Shown here: in pieces, positions 8,415-10,979 of the stretch
Layout: the number at the start of each line of letters is the position of its first letter
Position numbering within the stretch: the first letter of the stretch is position 1
Assembly: GCA_937927985.1 (NCBI GenBank)
Contig: CALFWH010000024.1
Location: forward strand, 1 to 11,365
Direction: 5' to 3'
Source of the DNA: an uncultured bacterium
GTDB lineage: Bacteria; DRYD01
DNA: 11,365 nucleotides
Translations under genes and position numbers: made by a program
The notes under the pieces: model-generated
Told to the model about the DNA's origin: nothing
Database searches by the model: none
What the model saw: only the letters and a program-made list of their open reading frames with translations

Positions 8415-10292
8415 TTAGGGGTTATTGAAGAATTTATTTATTAGTTCTTTGGGGGTTATTTGGCCTATATCTCCGATTCCTTTTTGTCTTACAGAGATAG
8501 TATTATTTTCTTGTTCTTTTTTTCCTATGATTATCATTAGGGGTATTTTTTGGGTTTCTGCTTTTCTTATTTTGTAGTTTAGTTTTTCTGCTCCGTCATC
8601 TAGTTCTACTCTTAAATTGTGTGATTTTAGGAAATTTAGTATCTGGTAGCTATATTCTAGGAATTTTTCTGAAATTGGTAGTATTACTGCTTGGGTGGGG
8701 GCTAACCAGAGTGGGAAATCTCCTTTATAGTGTTCTATTAGTATTCCGAAGAATCTTTCGAAGGATCCCAGTATAGCTCTGTGAATCATTACGGGGGTGT
8801 GTTTTTGGTTATCTGGTCCTATGTAGTGGATATTGAATTTTTGTGGTAGATTAAAATCAAGTTGTATGGTTGAGCATTGCCAGTTTCTTCCTAAAGCGTC
8901 GGTTATTTCTATATCTATTTTGGGGCCATAAAAAGCTCCTTCTCCTTCATTTATCTTATATTCTAAATTAGATTTTTCAAGGGCTTTTTTTAGTGATTCT
9001 TCTGCTAAATTCCATATTTCTATTTCTCCTACAAAATTCTCTGGTCTTGTGCTTAAGTAAACATTGTAATTTTCGAATCCAAACTTTGTTAGTATTTCCT
9101 TAGTTAGATTGATAAGATTAATTATTTCGTTTTCTATTTGTTCTGGTGTGCAGAATATGTGGGCATCATCTTGGGTAAATCCTCTAACTCTAAGCAATCC
9201 ATGTAGTACTCCTGATTTTTCATATCTATATACTGTGCCATATTCTGCTATTCTCAATGGTAATTCTTTATAACTTCTAGTTTTGCTTTGGAATACTTTT
9301 ATATGAAATGGGCAGTTCATGGGTTTTAGGATGAATTCTTGTTTTTCGTCGGTTTGCATAATGGGGAACATATACTGGTTGTATACATCTAGGTGGCCAC
9401 TTATTTTCCATAGCTCAGAATTTGCTATATGGGGGGTTCTTACAAATACGTAATTATTTTCTTCTAGTTTTTTTCTTAGGAATTCTTCTATAATGAATCC
9501 TATTTTTTCTCCTTTTGGTAACCAGATAATAAGTCCTGAGCCTATGGTGGGGTCTATTTCAAAGAGTTCAAGTTGTTTTCCTAGGATTCTATGATCTCTT
9601 TTTTTAGCTTCTTCTCTTTTTTGGATAAAATCTTCTAGTTCTTCTTGGGTGAAGAAGGAGGTGCCATATATTCTTTGTAGCATTTTATTTTTTTCATTAC
9701 CTTTCCAGTAGGCTCCACTTATTGATAGTAGTTTAAAATGTTTTATTTTACTGGTAGATATTAGGTGTGGTCCTCTGCATAGATCTATAAATTCTCCTTG
9801 TTGATAGATTGATACGATTTCTTCGGGGATATCTTCTTTTAGCATGATTACTTTATAAGGTTCGTCAAGTTCTTCGAATATTTTTATTGCTTCTTGTTTA
9901 GTTAATTCTTTGCGTTGGATTGGTAGGTTTTCTTGGGTTATTTTTTTCATTTCTTCTTCTATGATTGGTAAGTCTTGTTCGGAGATAGGGGTTTCAAAAT
10001 CGATGTCGTAATAGAATCCTATATCTACTGGTGGGCCTATGGTTATTTTAGCTTTATTTTTGTATATTCTTTTAATAGCTTGAGCCATTAGGTGAGCTGT
10101 ACTATGTCTTAGAATTTCTAGTGATCTATTATCTTTTTGGGTTAAAAGTTCTACTTCAGTAGTATCTTGTACTTTATAAGTAAGATCAACGGTTTTATCG
10201 TTTACTACTGCTGCTATAAAGTAATCAATATTGAGATTATTTTCCTTTATTGCTTCGATAATTGTGGTATTTTTTTTCACTATTATTCTCAT
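8415..10292 (-). CDS. thrS: Threonine-tRNA ligase
   Basis: ThrRS charges tRNA-Thr with threonine in the cytoplasm. From the start at 10292 it is 625 residues and has the full bacterial layout. The TGS domain (about 1-55) leads into the editing domain with HSTAHL (H63, H67) and CRGPH (C172, H176). The class II core follows: motif 2 around RIAEYGTVYRYE (R356) and RGFTQDDAHIFC, zinc ligands C327 (KPMNCPFH), H378 and H504 (VMIHRAILGS), and motif 3 (GSFERF). The anticodon-binding domain begins at about LAPTQAVILPIS. I chose this start because AAAGGAG lies 8 bases upstream and the TGS domain begins here; the longer in-frame ATG at 10394 would put the terminator hairpin inside the gene. No infC follows, as it often does in other bacteria; a KhtT-like gene follows after 2 bases. 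Confidence 0.96.
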   Translation of the reverse strand: MRIIVKKNTTIIEAIKENNLNIDYFIAAVVNDKTVDLTYKVQDTTEVELLTQKDNRSLEILRHSTAHLMAQAIKRIYKNKAKITIGPPVDIGFYYDIDFETPISEQDLPIIEEEMKKITQENLPIQRKELTKQEAIKIFEELDEPYKVIMLKEDIPEEIVSIYQQGEFIDLCRGPHLISTSKIKHFKLLSISGAYWKGNEKNKMLQRIYGTSFFTQEELEDFIQKREEAKKRDHRILGKQLELFEIDPTIGSGLIIWLPKGEKIGFIIEEFLRKKLEENNYVFVRTPHIANSELWKISGHLDVYNQYMFPIMQTDEKQEFILKPMNCPFHIKVFQSKTRSYKELPLRIAEYGTVYRYEKSGVLHGLLRVRGFTQDDAHIFCTPEQIENEIINLINLTKEILTKFGFENYNVYLSTRPENFVGEIEIWNLAEESLKKALEKSNLEYKINEGEGAFYGPKIDIEITDALGRNWQCSTIQLDFNLPQKFNIHYIGPDNQKHTPVMIHRAILGSFERFFGILIEHYKGDFPLWLAPTQAVILPISEKFLEYSYQILNFLKSHNLRVELDDGAEKLNYKIRKAETQKIPLMIIIGKKEQENNTISVRQKGIGDIGQITPKELINKFFNNP

Positions 10293-10300
10293 ATTGTGAG

Positions 10301-10307
10301 CTCCTTT
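10301..10307 (-). promoter_or_regulatory. Strong Shine-Dalgarno site fixing the thrS start
   Basis: AAAGGAG on the minus strand sits 8 bases before the ATG at 10292. It decides in favour of the 625-residue ThrRS over the 34-residue longer frame. Confidence 0.85.
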
Positions 10308-10338
10308 ACTTACTATAAAAATCAATTTACTTACTATA
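10305..10338 (-). repeat. 13-base direct repeat in the thrS leader
   Basis: TATAGTAAGTAAA occurs twice on the minus strand, at 10326-10338 and 10305-10317, with starts 21 bases apart, about two helical turns. The copy nearer thrS runs into the Shine-Dalgarno site. Each copy begins with TATAGT, five of six matches to a sigma-70 -10 box, but neither has a good -35 at the right distance. It could be a promoter with an operator, or a small duplication. The repeat is certain; the role is not known. Confidence 0.6.
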
Positions 10339-10353
10339 GAAAAAATTAAAAGC

Positions 10354-10385
10354 AAAAAAGAAAAACCCTCCTTGCTGGAGGGTTT
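10354..10385 (-). terminator. Rho-independent terminator after the glycine-rich gene
   Basis: On the minus strand, AAACCCTCC pairs with GGAGGGTTT (9 pairs, 10363-10385) around the loop AGCAA, followed by TTC and a run of six T (10359-10354). It begins 28 bases past the stop of the glycine-rich gene and lies 62 bases before the thrS ATG, so it separates the two units. No T-box sequence or antiterminator is evident, so I read it as a true terminator rather than a thrS attenuator, though the latter cannot be fully excluded. Confidence 0.88.
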
Positions 10386-10413
10386 ATGTATCACTTATAG
10401 TTTGTTTTTAAAT

Positions 10414-10965
10414 TTAGGCTAATCTTCCTGGGAATCCGAATGATCCACTTACTGTACTGAAGTTAAATCCCAAAGAAAATCCTCCTTGTTGGAATTGATT
10501 ATTTTGTGATTGTTGTTGCATTAGTAGCATTAGGAGGATGATTATTAGGAGTAGTATCATTTGTTGGTTTACTCCTTGGGGTTGGCAGCAGTTAGCTCCT
10601 GGTAGTCCACCCATTCCTGGTAGTCCGCCTATTCCGGGTAATCCGCCCATTCCTGTTAGTCCACCTATTCCAGTAGGTAAGGAGAAAGGAGATACTGGAT
10701 TTTGTCCAAACTGGTTTAGTGGATTAGATAATAAGCCACCTAGAATTCCGCCAAGTAATCCTCCTACTAGTCCACCTACTAAACCGCCTAATAATCCACC
10801 TGTTAATCCTCCTAATAATCCTTGCATTAATGGATTAGAAATATTAAGATTATCTTGTATACCAAAGCCGCTGCTTATCAATCCTGAGTTTACGGCAAAA
10901 CCTCCACTTACAAATCCTGTACTTATTGAAAATCCTCCGCCTATTAAATTAAACCCTGTATACAT
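10414..10965 (-). CDS. Low-charge LxGG/GxGGLP repeat protein of unknown function
   Basis: I do not recognise a family. The 183-residue protein is extreme in composition: apart from D38 and R181 I see no charged residue. Its N-terminal part (about 4-36) is a run of Gly-Phe/Ser phrases (GGFSISTGF, SGGFAVNSG, SSGFGI). Residues 50-77 are seven perfect tetrads of [LI]-[LTV]-G-G, a glycine-zipper pattern suited to membrane insertion or tight helix or sheet packing. Residues 99-122 are four hexads G-[IM]-G-G-L-[PT]. A C126-C127 pair follows, then a 14-residue purely hydrophobic stretch (136-149) between glutamine-rich arms, and a GGFSLGFNFS tail echoing the N-terminus. There is no classical signal peptide. 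An AGGAGG site 7 bases before the ATG and a dedicated terminator suggest high expression as a single gene. Possible roles are a self-assembling envelope or surface protein, a pore-forming peptide, or an amyloid; all are guesses. That it is a real gene is well supported. Confidence 0.85.
   Translation of the reverse strand: MYTGFNLIGGGFSISTGFVSGGFAVNSGLISSGFGIQDNLNISNPLMQGLLGGLTGGLLGGLVGGLVGGLLGGILGGLLSNPLNQFGQNPVSPFSLPTGIGGLTGMGGLPGIGGLPGMGGLPGANCCQPQGVNQQMILLLIIILLMLLMQQQSQNNQFQQGGFSLGFNFSTVSGSFGFPGRLA
10600..10671 (-). repeat. Four 18-base units encoding GxGGLP hexads
   Basis: Four tandem 18-base units encode residues 99-122 of the glycine-rich protein (G-I/M-G-G-L-T/P). The units differ mainly at synonymous positions, which suggests the peptide pattern, not the DNA, has been kept by selection. 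Confidence 0.8.
10735..10818 (-). repeat. Seven 12-base units encoding LxGG tetrads
   Basis: Seven tandem 12-base units encode residues 50-77 of the glycine-rich protein ([LI]-[LTV]-G-G). Glycine codons vary between GGA and GGT and leucine codons between units, so this is an older, maintained repeat and not a fresh slippage product. Confidence 0.8.
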
Positions 10966-10972
10966 ATCTCAT

Positions 10973-10979
10973 CCCTCCT
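10973..10979 (-). promoter_or_regulatory. Strong Shine-Dalgarno site of the glycine-rich gene
   Basis: AAGGAGGG on the minus strand lies 7 bases before the ATG at 10965. An overlapping ATG at 10972 is out of frame and too close to this site to be used. It is the strongest ribosome-binding site in the window. Confidence 0.85.

Follow-up and report, generated by a model that had tools for sequence, protein, structure and literature searches.

A nearly charge-free glycine-zipper protein from a Candidatus Calescibacterium-type genome is the enzyme-free member of a module family shared with peptidoglycan hydrolases

The window analysed here, a stretch of DNA of 11,365 nucleotides, encodes on its minus strand a 183-residue protein that is an enzyme-free member of a module family. 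At the level of sequence, this family is defined by the order of its elements: a Gly/Ser/Asn/Phe head, one Asp, an LxGG zipper, an SPFS motif and a hydrophobic block bounded by Asn and Gln. The window protein has all of these elements in this order, and no NlpC/P60, SLT or lysozyme domain was found in it. The same module forms the N terminus of NlpC/P60 peptidases (six genes) and of SLT transglycosylases (three genes and one cut short). Neither the enzymes nor the glycine zipper are new in kind. What appears to be new is the neutral module with its single Asp, the occurrence of this module in two or three classes of enzyme, and its version without an enzyme.

Gene and sequence features

The ORF is a genuine gene, conserved among relatives, and belongs to a genome of the Candidatus Calescibacterium type (hot springs); the assembly used comprises 876 kb in 169 contigs and is 71% complete. 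The features of the gene and its surroundings are as follows.

10973..10979, minus strand: ribosome-binding-site-like AGGAGGG, 7 bases before the ATG (spacing by eye)
10414..10965, minus strand: complete gene, encoding a 183-aa stand-alone member of the charge-free module family
10855..10965, minus strand: head, residues 1–37, rich in Gly, Phe, Ser, Ile and Val, uncharged
10837..10854, minus strand: residues 38–43, DNLNIS, with D38 the sole acidic residue
10735..10818, minus strand: glycine zipper, residues 50–77, six LxGG and ILGG
10681..10701, minus strand: residues 89–95, NPVSPFS; SPFS-type motif kept in most module members
10600..10671, minus strand: residues 99–122, GIGGLT and three GxGGLP, not conserved in orthologues
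10585..10590, minus strand: Cys126-Cys127, kept in four of five orthologues, Tyr-Tyr in G005
10519..10560, minus strand: 14-residue hydrophobic block, residues 136–149, between NQQ and QQQ
10417..10485, minus strand: tail, residues 161–183, FNFS...SGSFGFP, specific to stand-alone members
10363..10385, minus strand: terminator-like hairpin with a T run, 3' of the gene

The ORF (10414–10965) starts at ATG. Terminator-like sites number two in the region against 0.7 expected, and promoter-like sites show no excess (three against 2.9 expected); scans of the window with Rfam and ARAGORN returned no match and no tRNA, respectively. Downstream in the same direction lies a threonyl-tRNA synthetase-like gene (named by eye), and upstream, again in the same direction, a fragment weakly like HemD (16.6 bits; cut-off 27.5, so below threshold). 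The GTG listed as the start codon for the synthetase-like ORF (window 8415–10394) falls within the terminator hairpin of the charge-free gene, and its likely start is an ATG near 10292. Elsewhere in the window, a 193-aa ORF (533–1111) between a response regulator and a GAF/PAS histidine kinase gave no Pfam match.

D38 and R181 are the only charged residues of the protein, in which Glu, Lys and His are absent; 2 of 183 residues are thus charged, compared with 13.7–27.3% in seven other ORFs of the window that were counted. This residue count agrees with the original prediction, made from the DNA letters alone, that just these two residues carry charge. That prediction also gave the order of the elements correctly apart from two counts. 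Seven LxGG tetrads are present as it claimed, one of which (LIGG, residue 7) sits in the head, and the unbroken tetrad run at 50–77 consists of six LxGG and one ILGG. Three of the four GxGGLP hexads it listed are found (at 105, 111 and 117), while the unit at 99 reads GIGGLT. The Cys126-Cys127 pair and the 14-residue hydrophobic block flanked by NQQ and QQQ are as it described, and the synonymous variation it noted between repeat units can be seen in the codon listing. Structure prediction for the protein (pLDDT 45.7, pTM 0.17) is too poor to use; it places helices at 45–77 and 132–153 with a low confidence that makes them a hint only. Alternation in the head (residues 1–37) looks β-like, and the same poor model gives no strand there.

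Orthologues and constraint

Co-linear, full-length orthologues were found in four of the five other genomes of the taxonomic family, with identities to the window protein of 67% (G001), 68% (G002, assigned to the window's own genus), 63% (G004) and 56% (G005). In G003 the synthetase match starts at the very start of its contig and covers the C-terminal part only, so the stretch expected to hold the gene is not assembled in that genome. No orthologue was found in the one genome of the sister family (G006). When named genomes were scanned with the alignment of orthologues, a single record came up, Candidatus Calescibacterium sp. SKYB25 (JANXBF010000001.1). Weak matches with E up to 0.1 in eight genomes outside the family were taken as glycine-rich chance matches. 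The G001 orthologue has the same neighbours as the window gene; in G004 and G005 the orthologue faces a GroEL-like gene instead (by eye), and a HemD-type query used to compare gene order in G003 to G006 gave no match and is uninformative.

Third codon positions are the most variable in every pair, and dN/dS lies between 0.09 and 0.41 over the 10 pairs, ratios that are approximate because dS exceeds 1 in nine of them, near saturation. These values support the earlier proposal that the peptide pattern is selected, and the reading frame, whose loss in orthologues the original prediction had named as counter-evidence, is conserved. The zipper, SPFS, NQ and the hydrophobic block are kept in all five orthologues; the GxGGLP hexads, the number of tetrads (four to seven) and the Cys pair vary, and an Arg stands near the C-terminal end, as R181 does, in four of the five. 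The weight originally placed on the GxGGLP and Cys-Cys elements finds no support, since neither is conserved. Conservation is seen instead in the single Asp, in the zipper, in SPFS and in the block bounded by Asn and Gln.

The module family

Weak matches of the first searches were proteins with the same N-terminal order followed by a hydrolase. A module profile, built from 16 module sequences and searched over 386 genomes, gave 18 match rows representing 17 genes in all six genomes of the taxonomic family, and in the 380 other genomes three weak matches covering the zipper part only. The 17 genes comprise five stand-alone genes, six NlpC/P60, four SLT (one cut at a contig end) and two others: a lysozyme copy with a stop, and a gene of the window's own genome cut by a contig end. 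All six NlpC/P60 genes of the family bear the module, as do only 3 of its 16 SLT rows. The NlpC member of the own genome (L062) is without the zipper, which is thus not indispensable. The hydrophobic block measures 14 residues in 9 of 15 sequences, 15–16 in five, and is scored as 20 in one whose run includes Asn. No signal peptide is recognisable ahead of the module.

NlpC/P60, SLT and lysozyme domains scored over cut-off on the paralogue copies tested. Motifs of catalytic, active-site type, Cys/His and Glu, are present in the complete hydrolase copies; in two NlpC copies, those of G004 and G005, the third motif is a variant. Two reading frames share the NlpC member of G002 (L017, L064), and in G005 the lysozyme member (L120:3696-4679) contains one in-frame stop; each may reflect real decay or an assembly error. 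In the sister family, the SLT and NlpC frames of G006 (L077, L067) have Ser/Pro/Gly-rich N-terminal parts with neither the zipper module nor a visible signal peptide.

Two other sets of zipper-bearing proteins were observed. Long proteins of about 518–783 aa as read (L116:13104-15452 in G004, L057 in G005, L056 in G003 and L002 in G000) have a helical Ala-rich middle, GMPG/GMGLP repeats and glycine zippers, with no family over cut-off. In G004 and G005 the long gene lies about 4–11 kb from the stand-alone gene, and in G004 two proteins come after it, one acidic and helical, the other Hfq-like (by eye; L116:11918-13013). The 783-aa neighbour was considered as a type III translocator and dropped, its Pfam matches being all below cut-off and none of that family. 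L023, L026, L049 and L052 encode small proteins with zipper-like segments and a similar N/Y/S-rich N terminus (NNLYS type), some in tandem and without a signal peptide.

Likeness beyond composition

A profile from eight modules that do not stand alone was tested on the five stand-alone proteins and on shuffles of them. Three shuffle designs of 500 each were used, two of which keep the zipper and hydrophobic block in place, with composition correction off for real and shuffled sequences alike. The five proteins score 77.4, 65.9, 58.7, 86.4 and 88.7 bits, against maxima of 22.8 bits for the full shuffles and 65.0 bits for those preserving zipper and block; in each of the 15 comparisons, 0 of 500 shuffles reached the real score. 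What carries the alignment is the zipper and its NPL/NG flank, together with SPFS and the NQ block; the heads align weakly between stand-alone and hydrolase members.

The single aspartate of the neutral head

In all 16 module sequences the first 45 residues include one acidic residue and no more, always Asp and always at positions 33–43, and D38 of the window protein matches it. Basic residues in the same segment number 0 or 1, the window head having none. A loose motif around the Asp, D-x-[LFYAS]-[NSAI]-x-[NSL], was fitted afterwards. Charges in the first 40 residues average 1.2 (0–2), compared with 10.0 in 114 neighbouring ORFs. The Asp count left out two lysozyme proteins that speak against the rule: the G005 copy with one stop, the 17th module gene, has several acidic residues in its first open piece, and a G001 lysozyme protein, outside the list returned by the module profile, has three acidic and three basic residues in its head.

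With the module of an NlpC member as query, a protein database gave five proteins, of which one was identical and another 82% identical; the rest were two further NlpC proteins and a partial SLT member already known. On inspection by eye, the 82% relative has a single Asp at D34 and P0004 one at D32, one place outside 33–43; in P0005 the single Asp (D39) holds from an internal Met only, not from the annotated start 22 residues earlier.

Discussion

From these features we infer the topology, export route and function of the module proteins. The reading we prefer, to which we give an even chance, is that a neutral two-helix membrane module keeps wall hydrolases at the envelope, the stand-alone protein being an assembly partner. 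The module is predicted to span the inner membrane with two helices, one formed by the glycine zipper, which is weakly hydrophobic, and one by the hydrophobic block, with the head and the C-terminal part both on the periplasmic side. The head could cross the membrane because it is uncharged but for one Asp, and with the C-terminal part in the periplasm the hydrolases would be held at the wall. The stand-alone protein may pack with other members via the glycine zipper and so set the assembly of the hydrolase complex. The original prediction had guessed at a self-assembling envelope, fibre or pore component; the envelope is the most economical of these readings, since the same module carries peptidoglycan hydrolases. 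An envelope setting is sensible given that Omp85 was found in six of seven genomes of the order (it was not found in the incomplete own genome) and that the group is described in PMC4791363 as hot-spring bacteria, likely gram-negative, with flagellar genes.

Precedent for such insertion comes from PMC8548208, in which N-out tails with few charges are reported to insert without Sec, and acidic residues to govern dependence on YidC and on the membrane potential. The charges near the block are too few for the positive-inside rule to fix the topology of the module. In 3 of 10 hydrolases the sole charge near the block is a Lys or Arg just after it, which leans against a periplasmic C terminus. Sums over 19 residues, a crude measure, are 0.96 to 1.59 for the stand-alone zippers and 4.1 to 4.9 for the block with its N/Q flanks; being positive, they do not predict insertion of either segment. 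No operon joins the stand-alone gene to a hydrolase.

A more far-reaching version of this reading, which we consider unlikely, is that the membrane potential draws the neutral head with its obligatory Asp across the inner membrane independently of Sec. Two or three unrelated wall hydrolases would in this way reach the periplasm, with the stand-alone protein building a matching oligomer or pore. Such a carrier would bring enzymes to the wall without a signal peptide and would be the cellular, non-phage equivalent of a SAR endolysin with its pinholin.

The heads might instead direct export by a route that bypasses Sec, the simplest candidate being the flagellar type III apparatus, in which case the proteins would be secreted rather than anchored; we regard this as quite unlikely. 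An FlhA-type export gate is present in all seven genomes of the order, and in G001 a short SLT protein without a signal peptide (L115:7723-10988) adjoins flagellar-type genes (one FlgE/F/G domain over cut-off, FliK-type below); in G006 one SLT frame starts Ser/Pro/Ile-rich, with neither signal peptide nor zipper (by eye). Short SLT proteins similar to that of G001 occur in all six genomes of the family. For Pseudomonas effectors, type III substrate patterns given in PMC3338616 are Ser above 10% in the first 50 residues, an aliphatic residue or Pro at position 3 or 4, and no acidic residue in the first 12. All three of these Pseudomonas patterns are seen in 5 of 16 module heads and in 3 of 114 neighbouring ORFs; however, the other 11 heads miss at least one, and the aliphatic or Pro pattern is not enriched (7/16 heads, 54/114 neighbouring ORFs). 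Furthermore, the module genes looked at lie outside flagellar clusters, and the 14-residue hydrophobic block would tend to direct the chain to the membrane.

Gly/Phe/Ser repeats, the neutral composition and a tail (FNFS...SGSFGFP) limited to stand-alone members speak for a structural fibre, sheath or surface coat from which the hydrolases merely borrow low-complexity parts. The absence of a signal peptide, and an order of elements common with the hydrolases beyond composition, argue against a fibre, to which we assign a low probability.

It is less probable still that the module serves antagonism, permeabilising the membrane of a competitor and bringing wall hydrolases in, with the stand-alone protein as translocator or pore. 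PMC10240207 reports that the T6SS effector Tde1 has a glycine zipper which permeabilises membranes and without which delivery fails, and phage tail and lysis proteins also bear NlpC/P60, SLT and lysozyme domains. Against this, the module genes lie scattered as single copies that most of the family's genomes retain, neither an immunity gene nor a secretion cluster was noticed beside them (by eye), and PADLOC returned nothing for three proteins tested.

Equally improbable, in our estimation, is a cellular set resembling SAR endolysins and pinholins, in which the weakly hydrophobic charge-free segment would hold the hydrolase until the membrane potential falls and the stand-alone protein would be a small pore. 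The S21 pinholin has a two-helix layout, and holin-mediated export has reportedly been described in print. SAR domains are weakly hydrophobic, charge-free and Gly/Ala-rich, and phage Mu gp22 has a run with six Gly (PMC9239132); pinholins are small proteins paired with SAR endolysins (PMC9636201). SAR endolysins, however, have N-terminal basic residues and their segment at the very N terminus, whereas the module zipper starts near residue 50 after a neutral head; no phage genes were seen around the module genes (by eye), and a scan of viral contigs gave no relative. Lastly, that the frame is no gene and opens by chance over low-complexity DNA is barely credible. In the window the opposite strand too is open for much of its length (155 codons), because a Gly codon read in reverse encodes Pro; but in the four orthologues every antisense frame is broken by three stops or more, the sense frame is open and constrained in all five, and a ribosome site and terminator are present.

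If the two-helix membrane reading is right, a family of uncultured thermophiles places its NlpC/P60 and some of its SLT wall enzymes via a neutral two-helix module that is undescribed in the family libraries searched. The single conserved Asp in an otherwise charge-free head makes a simple, testable prediction on charge and membrane crossing. Low-complexity membrane segments, usually filtered from searches, can bear a conserved and shared architecture.

Comparison with known systems

Searches of Pfam and NCBIfam with the window protein gave matches below cut-off only, and PHROGs and PADLOC gave none. The original prediction knew of no family with this order of elements, which holds for these four resources; it had asked for a clear hit to a characterised family as counter-evidence, and no such match was obtained. 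A protein database searched with the full-length protein, with scoring confined to the 8000 candidates that had most words in common with it, returned one glycine-repeat protein (P0001, E 1.5e-3), taken as a chance match; residues 118–183 drew three candidates and no match, a result of little weight as an orthologue exists on a public contig. A PDB search by sequence gave three weak matches (best E 0.048), likewise taken as chance. The viral contig scan gave no relative, and no mention of the module family was found in the open-licence literature searched.

The nearest likenesses are to the Pfam glycine zippers PF05433 (Rick_17kDa_Anti; 14.8 bits, cut-off 24.2) and PF13488 (Gly-zipper_Omp; 13.8 bits, cut-off 25), both below threshold, with which the protein shares a Gly-x3-Gly-type repeat over residues 49–79; unlike them, it has LxGG with paired Gly and no lipoprotein signal. 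Membrane-anchored NlpC/P60 and SLT hydrolases have the same enzyme domains that follow the module in the paralogues, whereas the window protein has no enzyme domain, and a Sec or lipoprotein signal was not recognised in module members. The T6SS effector Tde1, compared by description only, resembles the module hydrolases in having a glycine zipper near its N terminus and a catalytic C terminus, but is an adaptor-loaded DNase and not a wall hydrolase.

SAR endolysins and pinholins (phage Mu gp22, phage 21 S68) resemble the family in that a Gly-rich, charge-free segment, weakly hydrophobic in the phage proteins and perhaps so in the module, is joined to wall hydrolases, and in having a small partner with two hydrophobic segments. 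The zipper is itself charge-free, with a crude 19-residue sum near 1 to 1.6. The one to three basic residues that precede a SAR segment are replaced in the window protein by a 37-residue neutral head with none, the 16 members having 0 or 1; the module hydrolases differ further from SAR endolysins in having a second hydrophobic block, and no phage setting was found.
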